Source: Prevotella sp.
Lineage (GTDB): Bacteria > Bacteroidota > Bacteroidia > Bacteroidales > Dysgonomonadaceae
NCBI GenBank assembly: GCA_031285625.1
Contig: JAITVV010000043.1
Location: 1 to 64,000 of the forward strand
Length of the DNA stretch: 64,000 nucleotides
Reading direction: 5' to 3'
Position numbers and translations under genes: made by a program. The notes below the pieces were generated by a model that had not been told where the DNA came from, did no database searches, and saw nothing but the letters and a program-made list of their open reading frames with translations. Positions within the stretch are counted from its first letter, which is position 1; the number at the start of each line of letters is the position of its first letter. Shown piece after piece: positions 49,222 through 55,974 of the stretch.

Positions 49222-50550
49222 TTAGTTATTAATTTCTTTTATTACTTCTATCAATCTTTCTTGTTCCAATATATATGTTCCAAGCCTGTCTTCCGAAATT
49301 CCATCTTTTAACTTATAAGTATATTCGGGAAATCCATTCTGTTTTATAATCTCTAGATACTTAAACTGAATATTAGATATACTCACAAGCTGCGACGTAA
49401 TCTCAATAATATGGGTTGATACGGCAAAACAAGAGTTACGAACTTCCGAAAAAGCCGATATAACAGCCAAAGACCCGTCATAAGCATCTTTGACATTAGT
49501 ACCTCTGAATAGCTCATCAAATATGACTAACAAATTATTAACCTTAAGTCTTTCTGCTATATATTTTATTCTTAATACTTCTGAGTAAAAGTGACTATAT
49601 CCTGAATTTAAGCTATCAGATAGATTTATAGTAGTATACAATCCTGAAAACAGACTAAAGCACATACTTTTTGCCGGAACAGGGAAACCGGCATGAGCAA
49701 GGAAAACAGCTATACCTAAAGACTTTAGAAACGTTGATTTCCCAGCCATATTTGGTCCTGAAACGAAAAGAAGATTCTTATCGGGATTAAAATCAATATT
49801 ATTCTTTACAGGGTCCTTCAGGAACGGATGGAACAAGCCCTCAATCCTTATCATATTTTTCTCCGGCGAAACCTCAGGAAATGACAAACTATATTTTTCT
49901 GCAGCTTTAGACAACGACATAAAGACATCATATTCATACATCAAGTCTAGAAGAAAGTTTATCTGAGCTTTATGCGTATAACGAAATAAATAATCGTATT
50001 GTGCAGTTTTATATGCACTTATTTTCTCTAAACTTTTTATTTCCGATATTGCAGCATATTCATCCTGAGAAAACAATTTAGATATTTTTTCATTGTTTTT
50101 TTCAATTAAATCCGGACATCCTTTTTCCTGCAAATCTAAAGACAGCTTGTATAAAGAATTTATTAAATCAAGCGTATAATCTACCCCCCTTTCGATAATA
50201 TAATAATCATTATTAGGACTCAGTTTGTTCAAAAATCCTTTTTCAATAGCAGCAAACCTTGAAGGGGGCTGTGTAGGGTAATTACCCAAAGTCAGGTAAT
50301 GCTCTATAAAATCAAGAGAATTTTTATCTATATCTACTGTTATTTTTGAATTCTTAAAAAAGGCTATTGCATCTACTCTTTGACGGATATCATCGAAATT
50401 ATCCAATGGTGAGTTTAAAAAGTCATACAGTTTATTTTTTCCACCAAGACTACGCGTAAAATTAAACAGATCAAAAATAGACTTACTATTCTTAACCGTT
50501 TTAAAAATTTCTATGTCTTTCAATGTCTGACTATCAAACTCAAAACTCAT
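49222..50550 (-). CDS. MutS-like ATPase, paralogue 2
   Basis: 442 residues. The N-terminal helical part corresponds to MutS core domains (about 20-260), and the C-terminal ATPase has Walker A SGPNMAGKSTFLKSLG (about 275-290), the Walker B segment VIFDELFRGTNVKDAYDG and the STHIIEITSQL switch. The mismatch-recognition N-terminal domain (F-x-E) and the connector are absent, and no Smr endonuclease domain follows, so it is neither canonical MutS nor MutS2. It starts 12 bp after the first paralogue and shares its start (MSFEFDSQTLKDIEIF). Such short MutS-like proteins are common in Bacteroidota; function unclear. Confidence 0.85.
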   Translation of the reverse strand: MSFEFDSQTLKDIEIFKTVKNSKSIFDLFNFTRSLGGKNKLYDFLNSPLDNFDDIRQRVDAIAFFKNSKITVDIDKNSLDFIEHYLTLGNYPTQPPSRFAAIEKGFLNKLSPNNDYYIIERGVDYTLDLINSLYKLSLDLQEKGCPDLIEKNNEKISKLFSQDEYAAISEIKSLEKISAYKTAQYDYLFRYTHKAQINFLLDLMYEYDVFMSLSKAAEKYSLSFPEVSPEKNMIRIEGLFHPFLKDPVKNNIDFNPDKNLLFVSGPNMAGKSTFLKSLGIAVFLAHAGFPVPAKSMCFSLFSGLYTTINLSDSLNSGYSHFYSEVLRIKYIAERLKVNNLLVIFDELFRGTNVKDAYDGSLAVISAFSEVRNSCFAVSTHIIEITSQLVSISNIQFKYLEIIKQNGFPEYTYKLKDGISEDRLGTYILEQERLIEVIKEINN

Positions 50551-50562
50551 TTACACTGACTT

Positions 50563-51903
50563 TTACAATGAGATATTATTTATCAATTCTATCAATCCTT
50601 CTTTCTTTATAATATACATGCCCAGCCGGATATCGGTAACTCCTTCTTTCAGCTTATATGTATATACCGGATGACCGTCTTCTTCTTTGATATCGAAATA
50701 GCAAAATTTTATATTTTCATTGGATTGCAACTCTCTGGCAACCTCTACAATATGCGAAGAAATAACAAAAAATGAAGTCTTAATCTTTGCAAAAGCAGAT
50801 ACAACAGATAGCGTACCATCATAAGCATCTTTCACATTAGTCCCCCGGAATAATTCATCAAAGAGAACCATCATATTATTATTTTGCTGCAATTTATTGG
50901 CAACATCTTTGATCCTCATCACCTCAGCATAAAAGTGGCTGTATCCCGAATTCAGATTATCAGAGATATTAATCGTAGTCGATAACCCGGACAGTATACT
51001 AAGTTTCAGCTTGCTGGCAGGAACAGGAAAACCGGCATGAGCCAGATAGACAGAAACTCCCAAAGCTTTCAGAAATGTAGATTTTCCCGCCATATTAGGA
51101 CCTGATACAAATAACAAATTAGATGAGGCTCCAAAACTCACATCATTTGCTACCGCATTCTCTACAAAAGGATGAAACAGACCTTCTATCTCAAGACAAT
51201 TTTCATTATCTGACACCATTTCAGGATATGAGAAATCATACATCTCGGCAGCTTTAGCTATCGACCTGAAAGCATCGTATTCATAGATAACATCCAGAAA
51301 GAACCTAAGATAATTTTTATCCGCATACCGAAATAAATAATCGTAGGTAGTAGTTTCTGTTGTTTTCACTTTCTTATGCTTTATAATATCAGCATAATCA
51401 GGTTCGGAAAGTATCCTGATCACCTCATTACTATTCCTTAAAAGTAATTTCGGTATATATTCATTTTTCGATCTGTCAATTAAAGTTTGAGAAAATAGAT
51501 GAAGTGTTTTTAATAGATCTATTGCTGCACCAACTCCGTTTTTAATCAAATAATAATCATTATTCGTGCTCAGTTTATCCAGCAAAAATTTCTCAAAGGC
51601 CATGTACCGGGAGGGAGATTTCGTCGGATAATTAGCATGTCTGAGATAATACTCTGTAAAGTCAAGAGAATTTTTATCCACACTCATACCTGCTGGACAA
51701 TGTTTCTGAAAAAAGGCAATAGCTTCTTTTCGCTCTGTAATCTCATCCAGATCAGTTGAAGGAGAAGCCAGAAAACTATGTATTTTCTTTTTTCCCCCAA
51801 AACATTTGGTATGATCGAACAAATCAAATACAGATGTTCCGTTACTGACTGTATTAAATATCTCGAGATCTTTCTTTGTTTGACTATCAACTTCAAATTT
51901 CAT
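50563..51903 (-). CDS. MutS-like ATPase, paralogue 1
   Basis: 446 residues from the ATG at 51903 (MKFEVDSQTKKDLEIF), chosen because it aligns with the start of paralogue 2; ATG 51912 and GTG 51927 are alternatives. Same layout: helical core, then SGPNMAGKSTFLKALG, VLFDELFRGTNVKDAYDG and SSHIVEVARELQ. The two proteins align throughout, so they are a tandem duplication. No mismatch-binding domain. A copy of the 53-bp repeat (E) lies about 70 bp upstream. Confidence 0.85.
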   Translation of the reverse strand: MKFEVDSQTKKDLEIFNTVSNGTSVFDLFDHTKCFGGKKKIHSFLASPSTDLDEITERKEAIAFFQKHCPAGMSVDKNSLDFTEYYLRHANYPTKSPSRYMAFEKFLLDKLSTNNDYYLIKNGVGAAIDLLKTLHLFSQTLIDRSKNEYIPKLLLRNSNEVIRILSEPDYADIIKHKKVKTTETTTYDYLFRYADKNYLRFFLDVIYEYDAFRSIAKAAEMYDFSYPEMVSDNENCLEIEGLFHPFVENAVANDVSFGASSNLLFVSGPNMAGKSTFLKALGVSVYLAHAGFPVPASKLKLSILSGLSTTINISDNLNSGYSHFYAEVMRIKDVANKLQQNNNMMVLFDELFRGTNVKDAYDGTLSVVSAFAKIKTSFFVISSHIVEVARELQSNENIKFCYFDIKEEDGHPVYTYKLKEGVTDIRLGMYIIKKEGLIELINNISL

Positions 51904-51973
51904 ATTTTCCATATTATAAGATTCCACCTATTCTTTTATAATATAGATGAAATATGAGATTATATTCCATAAG

Positions 51974-53340: not shown

Positions 53341-54309
53341 CTAAAAAGCTGATGCCTTCAATTTTAACCCTACAGTCTCTTCCAGACCAAAGATCAGGTT
53401 CATATTATGAACAGCCTGACCGGAAGCACCTTTCACTAAGTTATCTATACATGAGAGAATGAGAAACTTATTACCATGCTTTTCGAGATGCAAAACACAC
53501 TTATTAGTATTTACTACCTGCTTCAGATCAATATTCTTATCTGAAACAATAACAAATGGACTATCTTTATAAAAGTCTTTATATATTCTTTCAGCATCTT
53601 CTATCGTCCCATCATAGTTAAGATACGTAGAAACAAAAATACCTCTGGTAAAATTTCCGCGTACAGGTATAAAATTAATTTCGGATGCGAAATTTGCCTG
53701 TAATTGGGTCAATGACTCACCTATCTCTTGCAGATGCTGATGTTCGAAAGCTTTATATACCGATATATTATTTTCACGCCAACTAAAATGAGATGTTGCG
53801 GAAGGCTTCACTCCTGCCCCTGTAGATCCGGTAATAGCATTTACATGAATTTCTGTATTCAGCAATCCTGCATTGGCCAATGGTAATAGGCCTAACTGTA
53901 TAGCTGTAGCAAAACAACCCGGATTAGCAATATAAGAAGTATTTTTTATTTTCTCTTTGTTTAGTTCAGGCAGTCCATATACAAATTTATTACCCTCTGC
54001 TTTGTGGCGATAATCTGTAGACAGGTCAATTATTTTCAAGTGACCAGGTATCTGGTTTGCTTCCAGAAACTTTTTAGTATCTCCATGAGCCGTACAAAAG
54101 AACAGAACATCAATCTTCTCGTAAGGTAACTGATCTGTAAAAGACATATCTGTCTCGCCCAAAAGTCCTCCATGAACGTCTGTTAACTTATTTCCCGCAT
54201 TACTGGTACTGTTTACAAATACCAGTTCCACTTGTGGATGGTTGAGTAAGATTCTTATCAGTTCTCCCGCCGTGTAGCCTGCGCCACCTATTATTCCTGC
54301 TTTTATCAT
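53341..54309 (-). CDS. argC: N-acetyl-gamma-glutamyl-phosphate reductase
   Basis: 322 residues, the short type. N-terminal NAD(P)-binding GIIGGAGYTAGELIRIL (about 5-21), DLSTDYRH, and the catalytic Cys132 in IANPGCFATAIQLGLLPL; SGTGAGV-like stretch STGAGVKPSATSHFSWRENN and PVRGNFTRGI follow. It reduces N-acyl-glutamyl phosphate to the semialdehyde. In transcription order it follows argG, but a GxxExxY cassette has been inserted between them. The catalytic machinery looks intact. Confidence 0.95.
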   Translation of the reverse strand: MIKAGIIGGAGYTAGELIRILLNHPQVELVFVNSTSNAGNKLTDVHGGLLGETDMSFTDQLPYEKIDVLFFCTAHGDTKKFLEANQIPGHLKIIDLSTDYRHKAEGNKFVYGLPELNKEKIKNTSYIANPGCFATAIQLGLLPLANAGLLNTEIHVNAITGSTGAGVKPSATSHFSWRENNISVYKAFEHQHLQEIGESLTQLQANFASEINFIPVRGNFTRGIFVSTYLNYDGTIEDAERIYKDFYKDSPFVIVSDKNIDLKQVVNTNKCVLHLEKHGNKFLILSCIDNLVKGASGQAVHNMNLIFGLEETVGLKLKASAF

Positions 54310-54325
54310 TACAATATATTTATTG

Positions 54326-54357
54326 AAACACAGAGTAAGAAGAGTAGAAAAGAGTTT
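54326..54357. repeat. Inverted repeat arm, argC side
   Basis: 32 bp; reverse complement of 54733-54764 with a single mismatch. Includes two bases of the GxxExxY stop codon TAA (54356-54358). Confidence 0.85.
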
Positions 54358-54730
54358 ATATTGAATATCTTTTTATTCCGTCTCTCAATGATTTCACATT
54401 AAAATTAATCAAATATCCGATTTTACATCTGGAAAGTTTTAGATATGTAAATAATTGCGCTATATGAAGCGGATGTAGTTCTGCTACTGCTTTCAATTCA
54501 AGAATAACCTTGTTCTCTACTAATAAATCTACCCTGTATCCAGCTTCGATTTCGATACCTTTGTATTCAATAGGCATTTCTTCTTGGCGTGTCACGCGTA
54601 AACCACTTTCTGCTATTTCATAGAAAAGACATTCTTCATATACTCTCTCAAGTAATCCCGGTCCAAGAGCAGAATGTACATCATATGCGCATCTTAATAT
54701 TTCTCCTGTTAATTTTTGCTCTTCAAACAT
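54356..54730 (-). CDS. GxxExxY protein, PD-(D/E)XK nuclease-like
   Basis: 124 residues. The name motif is Gly25-Leu-Leu-Glu28-Arg-Val-Tyr31 (GPGLLERVYEECL). A PD-(D/E)XK-type active site is visible: Asp68 (YRVDLLV) and Glu78-x-Lys80 (ILELKAV). The C-terminus LHPLHIAQLFTYLKLSRCKIGYLINFNVK is typical. The family is found in many Bacteroidota genomes; its function is unknown, although the fold suggests a nuclease. It is embedded between inverted repeats inside the arginine operon, and pairing of the arms in mRNA would cover its ribosome-binding region. Confidence 0.92.
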   Translation of the reverse strand: MFEEQKLTGEILRCAYDVHSALGPGLLERVYEECLFYEIAESGLRVTRQEEMPIEYKGIEIEAGYRVDLLVENKVILELKAVAELHPLHIAQLFTYLKLSRCKIGYLINFNVKSLRDGIKRYSI

Positions 54731-54732
54731 AA

Positions 54733-54764
54733 AAACTCTTTTCTACTCTTTTTACTCTGTGTTT
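54733..54764. repeat. Inverted repeat arm, argG side
   Basis: 32 bp; begins AAACTCTTTTCTACTC. On the transcribed strand it is the 5' arm and contains the A/G-rich GAAAAGAG just upstream of the GxxExxY ATG. Confidence 0.85.
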
Positions 54765-54774
54765 AATACAATTA

Positions 54775-55974
54775 TTACTTTCCGTTTTTCTTCTGTACAC
54801 TATGATATATCTTATTAGTCATAGCATATATCTTGGTAAACCCTTTTGCATCATCCGATGTCCATGCTTTGTTCATTTCACCATATTCACCAAAATCGGC
54901 TTTCATCAGGTCAAATTCACTTTCTATGCCCACAAGTGTATAATGATATGGTTTCAGTTCAACAATAACCTTTCCTGTTACATTTCGTTGCGAACTGTCA
55001 AGCATAGCTTCGATATCACGCATTACAGGCTCAAGATACTGAGCTTCATGCAAAAACATGCCATACCAGTTACCCACCTGATCTTTCCAGTATTGCTGCC
55101 ATTTAGTAAGCGTATGTTTTTCCAGCATCTTATGCGCGTTAATAATTACAAGCGGAGCAGCTGCTTCAAAACCTACACGACCTTTTATTCCTATAATAGT
55201 ATCACCTATATGCATATCACGACCTATAGCATAAGCCGATGCTATTTCTTCTATTTTTTGTATAGCTTTTACTTTATCTGTATATTTTTCGCCATTTACC
55301 GCTGAGATTTCTCCTTCCTTAAAATCAATAGTCAACGTTTCTGAGCCTTGTTTCTTCAGTTGGGAAGGGTATGCATCCTCGGGTAAGGTCTGATCCGACT
55401 TCAATGTTTCTTTTCCGCCGATACTTGTTCCCCAAAGACCTTTATTAATAGAATACTCCATCTTTGTGAAATCGGCTTCATAGCCATGTTCTTTCAGGTA
55501 ATTGATTTCGTATTCACGGGTAAGTAGCATATCACGTGTAGGGGTGATAATCTCAATACCGGGAGCAAGCACATCGAAAGTAAGGTCGAAACGCACCTGA
55601 TCGTTGCCAGCACCTGTACTGCCATGAGCTACCGCATCAGCACCAATTTCCTTTGCATAATTAATAATAGCGATTGCCTGAAAAATACGTTCGGAGCTTA
55701 CAGATATAGGGTATGTACCATTACGCAATACATTACCAAAGATCATGTATTTTATACTCTTCTCATAATATTCTTGCGTAATATCAAGACTAACATGCTT
55801 TACTGCACCTAATTTATAAGCCTTTTCTTCAACAACTTTCAGTTCTTCGGGCGAAAAGCCTCCGGTGTTAGCTATTGCCGTGTAAACCTCATAACCAAGA
55901 TCAGCTGATAAATATTTGGCACAAAAAGATGTATCTAATCCTCCACTGAATGCTAAAACGACTTTCTTTTTCAT
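54775..55974 (-). CDS. argG: Argininosuccinate synthase
   Basis: 399 residues. The N-terminal PP-loop AFSGGLDTSFCAKYL (about 8-22) binds ATP. Further typical segments are VAHGSTGAGNDQVRFDL (about 115-131), ITPTRDMLLTREYEINYLKEHG and NKGLWGTSIGGKETL. It joins citrulline and aspartate to argininosuccinate using ATP. Second enzyme gene after the regulator and GNAT in the arginine run; a GGGTCTGAGACCC palindrome lies 17-29 bp upstream of its ATG. Confidence 0.95.
   Translation of the reverse strand: MKKKVVLAFSGGLDTSFCAKYLSADLGYEVYTAIANTGGFSPEELKVVEEKAYKLGAVKHVSLDITQEYYEKSIKYMIFGNVLRNGTYPISVSSERIFQAIAIINYAKEIGADAVAHGSTGAGNDQVRFDLTFDVLAPGIEIITPTRDMLLTREYEINYLKEHGYEADFTKMEYSINKGLWGTSIGGKETLKSDQTLPEDAYPSQLKKQGSETLTIDFKEGEISAVNGEKYTDKVKAIQKIEEIASAYAIGRDMHIGDTIIGIKGRVGFEAAAPLVIINAHKMLEKHTLTKWQQYWKDQVGNWYGMFLHEAQYLEPVMRDIEAMLDSSQRNVTGKVIVELKPYHYTLVGIESEFDLMKADFGEYGEMNKAWTSDDAKGFTKIYAMTNKIYHSVQKKNGK

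Follow-up and report, generated by a model that had tools for sequence, protein, structure and literature searches.

A GxxExxY gene enclosed by inverted arms lies between argG and argC in the window, by which we mean the whole 64,000-nucleotide stretch of DNA analysed here, and the same architecture recurs at GxxExxY genes across phyla. We put at about an even chance the proposal that this cassette is a member of a widespread family of selfish DNA that resembles REPIN/RAYT systems, employs a different nuclease and acts on DNA. The architecture and its links are solid, and it is from these that we infer the mechanism.

The initial annotation had placed a GxxExxY gene between inverted repeats at the argG-argC junction, and the open reading frame, the arms and both neighbours bear this out (Table 1), argC being called by TIGR01850 (298.9 bits against a cut-off of 233.6) and argG by TIGR00032 (270.4 bits against 268.2). 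The arms had been drawn as 32 nt long and matched at 31 positions, with the upstream one ending 2 bp before the ATG and the downstream one including the stop codon. Both the match count and the upstream boundary hold for the arms so drawn; the 32-nt downstream arm covers two bases of the stop codon, and the whole codon is included when the arms are extended to 36 nt. At this length the arms are 94% complementary and are separated by 367 nt. On the gene strand the upstream arm reads AAACACAGAG-TAAAAAGAG-TAGAAAAGAG-TTTTTAT and contains three cores at spacings of 9 and 10 bp, one of them complete (CACAGAG) and two worn (AAAAGAG); with a single complete core and two halves in each arm, the cassette is a worn version of the arrays described below. 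Its flanking inverted-repeat score is 66, whereas the highest among 600 shuffled draws was 29, and a score of 30 was reached by just 21 of 1123 real control genes; the inverted arms of the window exceed chance. Elsewhere in the window, two adjoining ORFs occupy positions 49222-51927 on the minus strand, of which that at 50563-51927 scores far under the cut-offs of the MutS-family models it matches and the other is similar by eye.

Table 1. The GxxExxY cassette and its operon neighbours, in window coordinates.
Feature	Position	Strand	Remark
GxxExxY gene, 124 aa	54356..54730	-	PD-(D/E)XK-type set E28, D68, E78-x-K80, Q92-x3-Y96
Upstream arm	54729..54764	-	Points at gene
Downstream arm	54326..54361	+	Inverted copy of upstream arm (34/36), includes stop codon
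Whole cassette with extended arms (~49 nt each)	54312..54776	-	From a wider inverted-repeat scan
argG	54775..55974	-	Operon neighbour upstream of cassette
argC	53341..54309	-	Operon neighbour downstream of cassette

The window protein matches the GxxExxY family model TIGR04256 (E = 4.4e-45, 152.8 bits against a cut-off of 35) and PF13366, PDDEXK_3 (E = 4e-43, 146.9 bits against 22), the latter being its sole Pfam match up to E = 1. Among 168 relatives, E28 (96%), D68 (98%), E78 (97%), K80 (97%), Q92 (95%) and Y96 (98%) are conserved together with Y31, the whole set ranging from 95 to 99%; Asp68, Glu78 and Lys80, singled out by the initial annotation, are retained in 97-98%. The order E..D..ExK..QxxxY is what we take to be the signature of Cas4/RecB nucleases, and as judged from its sequence the GxxExxY protein keeps this PD-(D/E)XK signature in full. 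The Pfam Cas4 model was weakly matched by 31 of 47 family members at E ≤ 1 (best 7e-4), and no sequence relative was found in the PDB at E ≤ 1. These findings support the earlier description of the locus as a self-contained nuclease-like cassette. The pipeline of one study reported a GxxExxY domain where a cas4 gene was expected (PMC8934634). Between argG-argC copies, dS was finite in 11 of 21 pairs, though mostly saturated, and dN/dS ranged there from 0.05 to 0.19; it was 0.06 and 0.09 in the two pairs of copies from genome G048 described below, ratios that indicate purifying selection on the protein. GxxExxY genes were detected in 152 of 296 sampled genomes (E ≤ 0.001), about half, of the phylum, which we take to be Bacteroidota from the nearest named relatives. 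A phage gene, a plasmid gene and an anti-phage defence family were considered as identities and rejected: the window protein has no match among 50,697 phage records and 8 matches among 72,556 plasmid records (E ≤ 1e-5), and PADLOC gave three weak matches (best 0.008) and PHROGs a best value of 0.25. A haptophyte-alga virus is annotated with a GxxExxY protein (PMC12085832).

In the relatives, each arm repeats in tandem a degenerate 7-nt core, CRCNRAK (most often CACAGAG), read towards the gene. The core variants include CACAGAG, CACGGAG, CGCAAAG, CGCAGAT, CACTGAT and others, and they are spaced 8-11 bp apart, with spacings of 8, 9, 10 and 11 bp counted 42, 96, 104 and 33 times. Of 117 GxxExxY genes, 49 have inward arrays on both sides and 95 on one side or more; for 1126 other genes at these loci the counts are 2 and 69. 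In 68 of the 117 they are not on both sides. Flanking inverted repeats at other GxxExxY genes, a prospect raised from the window alone, were also found in a sequence-blind test, in which 100 of 168 such genes reached a flanking inverted-repeat score of at least 30, against 21 of 1123 controls, and 68 scored lower. The loci were chosen by similarity or score, the named ones being the best 80 of 565 confirmed stretches rather than a random sample and the 40 phylum loci being hand-picked from the upper part of the match list; with this selection, the score was reached by 46 of 78 named, 25 of 39 phylum and 29 of 51 relative genes (controls 11/722, 9/390 and 1/11). All 80 named loci had the gene, as did 39 of the 40 phylum loci and 51 relative loci, of which 78, 39 and 51 were scored after those with too-short flanks had been dropped, and four loci without a tblastn match were left out of the comparison of relatives. 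The arms match each other beyond the core, for example at L147 and L230. Named contigs contribute 78 of the 117 genes and are labelled Bacteroidota, Planctomycetota, Verrucomicrobiota, Acidobacteriota, Pseudomonadota, Chloroflexota, Spirochaetota, one Methanosarcinales MAG and others. MAG contigs make up most of the 80 named loci, so single labels among them may be binning errors.

Arrays also form hairpins without a gene, in which the pattern TTAACCACAGAG-n-CACAAAG-nn-CACAGAG is followed by a loop of ~10-100 nt and then by its inverse. In G309, seven of the eight close inverted pairs found with a three-core pattern have letter-identical 27-nt arms, and all seven arm sequences differ; the arms are therefore matched within each hairpin and variable between hairpins. 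The loops are mostly unrelated to one another. Dispersed, putatively extragenic inverted doublets that form hairpins are thus present. The window's genome contains a single GxxExxY gene and one further arm-like place, a gene-less, hairpin-like site on another contig (C14, ~58795) that reads AACACAGAGTAAAAGGAGTAACACGGAG...ACTCCGTGGAACTCTGTGAGACTCCGTGTT. The arms of this site (L006, 2790-2940) are related to those of the window cassette, a GACTTTT/AAAAGTC symmetry runs past them, and the neighbours of the site are a large ORF that looks carbohydrate-active and another that resembles a transporter, both named by eye. Two kinds of array are nested in G005 (L422, ~1440-1580), where a CGCAAAG-type hairpin encloses a CACGGAG-type half-arm; an empty site for this gene-less hairpin was not found in relatives, in which the downstream DNA differs. 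At L319 (G206, contig C12) and at L313/L316 (G317), arrays lie within long tandem duplications, with an offset of 168 bp at L319.

Array number is associated with the gene across genomes. Over 295 phylum genomes (the 296 minus the window's own), a two-core pattern gave 683 matches, 663 of them in the 151 genomes that carry GxxExxY. Gene and array occur together in 94 genomes, 14 have the array only, 57 the gene only and 130 neither (odds ratio 15, Fisher p = 4e-22; this and the other associations are not fully corrected for shared ancestry). Because the reversed pattern yielded ~39 matches over all 296 genomes, the 20 matches in gene-less genomes are at about chance level. Among the 41 genomes with at least four matches, 40 carry GxxExxY, the exception being G167, with five arrays and no gene detected. 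Setting aside two matches per gene as possible own arms removes 385 of the 663 and leaves 278; 57 of the 151 gene-bearing genomes have no array match. The excess is also seen inside six of the seven families compared, each with only 2-7 gene-less genomes, and the seventh, f42, has almost no arrays. In the window's genus, where the array pattern was run with two mismatches allowed (reversed control, 15 matches in 25 genomes), matches number 3, 42, 1, 21, 53, 5, 32 and 16 in the eight genomes that carry this gene lineage and 0-8 in the other 17, some of them with other GxxExxY clades (Mann-Whitney p = 0.004, the groups having been chosen after the counts were seen); G024, G000 and G005 have the gene and few arrays. 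The four-helix-bundle protein (TIGR02436) was considered as the driver of the arrays and rejected, since genomes without GxxExxY have 0.14 arrays each with four-helix-bundle genes and 0.13 without them. This model matches 222 of the 296 phylum genomes, and no such gene was detected in the window's genome.

Arm type tracks the clade of the predicted nuclease. On a tree of 100 proteins, arm class (core ending in AG, AT or other) changes 12 times against a shuffled mean of 21.9, and none of 200 shuffles gave as low a number. At 89 loci with a score of at least 34, AG-type arms accompany 60 of 69 proteins with an NFN motif and none of the nine with NFG, the remaining 11 having neither motif as searched. 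Both kinds co-occur in G048 (L048 and L042), so the pairing of arm and enzyme does not reflect host ancestry alone. Moreover, gene arms and gene-less hairpins within 10 kb of each other share spacing and type at 11 of 14 loci (null 5.0; 0 of 5000 permutations), and local duplications may account for part of this agreement.

One clear unit-sized duplication was found, in the G048 assembly. A 481-bp unit of gene plus arms is present there twice (L054 and L056), on different contigs, at 91% identity and between unrelated flanks, and the identity spans the whole unit, with both arms included up to their outer ends. A second pair in this genome (L044 and L045) is similar, one of its copies stopping at a contig edge. 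Since the assembly is fragmented (~700 contigs) and its estimated contamination is 3%, the copies could come from two organisms. The target duplication that junction comparison had been expected to define was not definable: in the one usable pair (L054/L056) the flanks are inconsistent, TAAA/TAAA in one copy and AG/AG in the other. Across 65 loci in eight multi-copy genomes, the two G048 pairs are the only recent ones; the other within-genome copies have 64-80% DNA identity or no match and are mostly too old to define ends, so movement is rare. Family f30, in which several genomes share the gene in syntenic DNA, also speaks against frequent movement. Several multi-copy genomes (G296, G115, G263, G192, G254 and others) hold a number of GxxExxY copies with in-frame stops or as fragments only, as expected of decaying selfish elements.

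The argG-argC site itself is polymorphic. When junctions with and without the cassette were compared within the genus, as had been proposed from the window, the gene was present at 7 of 21 readable junctions, and at least four others carried half-arms or a palindrome. These gene-less scars are a half-arm in G017 and G011 and a short gene-less palindrome in G014 and G015. G019 has a hairpin of another type (CGCAAAG arms) at this position and G003 an array piece, CTCCCTGTG..CTCCGTG, without CGCAAAG; no clear arms were seen in the remaining gene-less gaps, and that of G012 has another ORF. In the ArgC tree, whose 'none' group includes G022 and G007 with unreadable junctions and in which G019 and G003 are grouped together, gene-bearing G018 is sister to the scarred G017 and G014 (97/93). 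G001 carries a gene of this lineage at another place, with unrelated genes on either side, and is the sister of gene-bearing G020 (99/94). Together, the copies and the patchy sites point to mobility of the cassette.

Binding and cutting of the arrays by the protein is, we infer, what drives their spread. The Cas4/RecB-like PD-(D/E)XK protein would most likely recognise the arrays, probably as a hairpin or cruciform, and the predicted nuclease would cut DNA at the arrays so recognised. Cutting would lead to the copying or re-insertion of gene-plus-arms units in cis and of gene-less hairpins in trans, in both cases into intergenic DNA, as has been proposed for RAYT transposases with REPINs. Thereafter the units would pass down vertically and disappear through deletions, with half-arms or a bare hairpin left behind. 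The unrelated loops of the gene-less hairpins count against reading them as selfish units, because they are unlike fresh copies of one mobile unit.

The gene could instead spread among hairpins that are already in place, the nuclease cutting gene-less hairpins and arm recombination with a gene-bearing copy repairing the break. Such homing would fit the argG-argC junction, which has a gene-less palindrome in some congeners and the cassette with its gene in others (G015 versus G000, and others). It would also fit the junction of G005 (L008/L069), where the gene is followed by a complete gene-less hairpin with near-identical arms, making three arms in a row, as well as the full hairpin on each side of the gene at L045 and the hairpins nested in hairpins at L422. 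However, nothing in the unrelated flanks of the L054/L056 unit hints at a prior hairpin, and the scars may equally be losses, with G017 and G014 standing beside gene-bearing G018; we regard homing as unlikely.

The initial annotation had raised the idea of an element acting at the RNA level, in which the two arms would pair once transcribed, mask the ribosome-binding site and be cleaved by RNase III, the insert thereby leaving the mRNA as a 23S rRNA intervening sequence does. The part concerning the start region has support, in that the segment has a predicted RNA fold with z = -4.3 (100 shuffles) whose long stem covers and pairs it. Fold-out and RNase III cleavage as the driving principle have little: among arm mismatches at the 89 loci with a score of at least 34, no excess of G.U was found on the gene strand (G.U:A.C 54:57, 27:37 and 36:37, over 1550+876+1311 arm columns), and we rejected an RNA stem under strand-specific selection on this account. 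A search of Rfam with 11 sources (L001 and ten other loci) returned no match. Cassettes do lie mostly in line with neighbouring transcription, 74 of 102 being co-directional with both neighbours, which fits the earlier reading, but this bias resembles that of ordinary genes (59%). Similar arms at four-helix-bundle genes, which belong to the protein family of intervening sequences, would also suit an RNA element. Against this, the window insert lies outside rRNA, and the arm words are conserved in sequence across phyla, are linked to nuclease clade and exist in gene-less copies, which together favour recognition of DNA. An element driven from the RNA level is, in our estimate, improbable.

Alternatively, the arrays might serve as binding sites for a resident nuclease that works for the host, for example in repair or defence, in which case the gene would be autoregulated, the dispersed arrays secondary and mobility absent. 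The repeated 7-nt cores do resemble protein-binding sites, the purifying selection on the protein would follow naturally, the window protein is unmatched in the phage records, and in family f30 the gene lies in syntenic DNA in several genomes (L239, L246, L248, L249 and L250). Operators alone would hardly account for arms that match beyond the core, for the G048 unit duplication, for patchy presence with scars or for the in-frame-stop and fragment copies of multi-copy genomes, and we consider a purely regulatory role quite improbable. Least probable of all is that template switching at imperfect palindromes keeps correcting the arms of a site that the gene merely tolerates: the letter-identical yet mutually different arms of G309, the mostly unrelated loops and the strand symmetry of the mismatches would suit it, but the array flanking of the GxxExxY family across phyla, the genome-wide association and the clade-following arm type would be left unexplained, and such correction may rather act on top of the main explanation.

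A bolder reading, which we put at somewhat less than an even chance, goes further. In many bacterial phyla and on one archaeal MAG contig, a lone small Cas4-like nuclease would spread itself and gene-less palindromes of tandem 7-nt cores, with no known transposase, recombinase or reverse transcriptase of its own; enzyme and core would co-evolve into lineage-specific pairs, and four-helix-bundle genes would be a second cargo with this architecture. In the open-access literature we found no description of a role for GxxExxY or of the arm words as repeats, and nothing on PDDEXK_3 with an inverted repeat. The combination of the gene with scattered gene-less arrays suggests an undescribed kind of mobile DNA. 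Should GxxExxY genes drive the dispersed hairpins, a large uncharacterised gene family would gain a testable function, a common intergenic repeat that the open-access search found undescribed would gain a cause, and REPIN/RAYT would gain an independent counterpart whose nuclease has another fold. Since enzyme and 7-nt word are paired lineage by lineage, recognition could be assayed directly on short synthetic DNA.

Several known systems invite comparison. A classical MITE or insertion sequence would be recognised by a target-site duplication and by an interior common to its copies; the one usable pair here gave no consistent duplication, and the loops of the gene-less hairpins are mostly unrelated. 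PD-(D/E)XK homing endonucleases are likewise small nuclease genes in compact inserts that may use flanking homology, but the insert studied here is intergenic, between its own repeat arrays, rather than in an intron or intein. Cas4/RecB-type nucleases share the motif order and the weak Pfam Cas4 matches noted above, whereas the GxxExxY protein is small (~125 aa), no cas gene is among its named neighbours and no solved relative was found by sequence. Four-helix-bundle genes (TIGR02436) resemble the cassette in their flanks: of 20 high-scoring genes sampled, 10 lie between inverted arms, compared with 3 of 210 controls, and many of these arms are short tandem repeats with a period of ~9-10 bp (L087-L116, L266-L285). 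They differ in their cores, such as GTTGCTAAGATGCTGAG or AGTATTGAG, and in encoding an unrelated protein, and their presence does not predict CRCRRAG arrays.

The intervening sequences of 23S rRNA, as portrayed in PMC4990558, have a short ORF with complementary borders in a transcribed region, and are called selfish elements that are patchy and vertically kept. The window cassette, in contrast, lies between argG and argC rather than in rRNA and encodes GxxExxY, which is unrelated to the S23/four-helix-bundle protein; it has gene-less dispersed relatives, and RNA excision is unsupported by the G.U test. Since four-helix-bundle genes too have inverted arms, the comparison drawn by the initial annotation may point to a shared architecture.

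In the way it would work, the system is most like REPIN/RAYT, in which REP doublets go with REP-associated tyrosine transposases (PMC3116915). Both have dispersed extragenic hairpins built from inverted words in pairs, a nuclease gene in low copy close to those words and a hairpin type matched to the enzyme lineage. The enzyme here is assigned to the PD-(D/E)XK type (PF13366), whereas RAYT is a Y1/HUH tyrosine transposase. Relative to REPINs, each arm here is a tandem array of 7-nt cores spaced 8-11 bp, matched arms enclose the gene itself, and the arms match within each hairpin and differ between hairpins. Because enzyme and words differ, the cassette is not a member of the REPIN/RAYT group, and the likeness is one of how the two systems would work.
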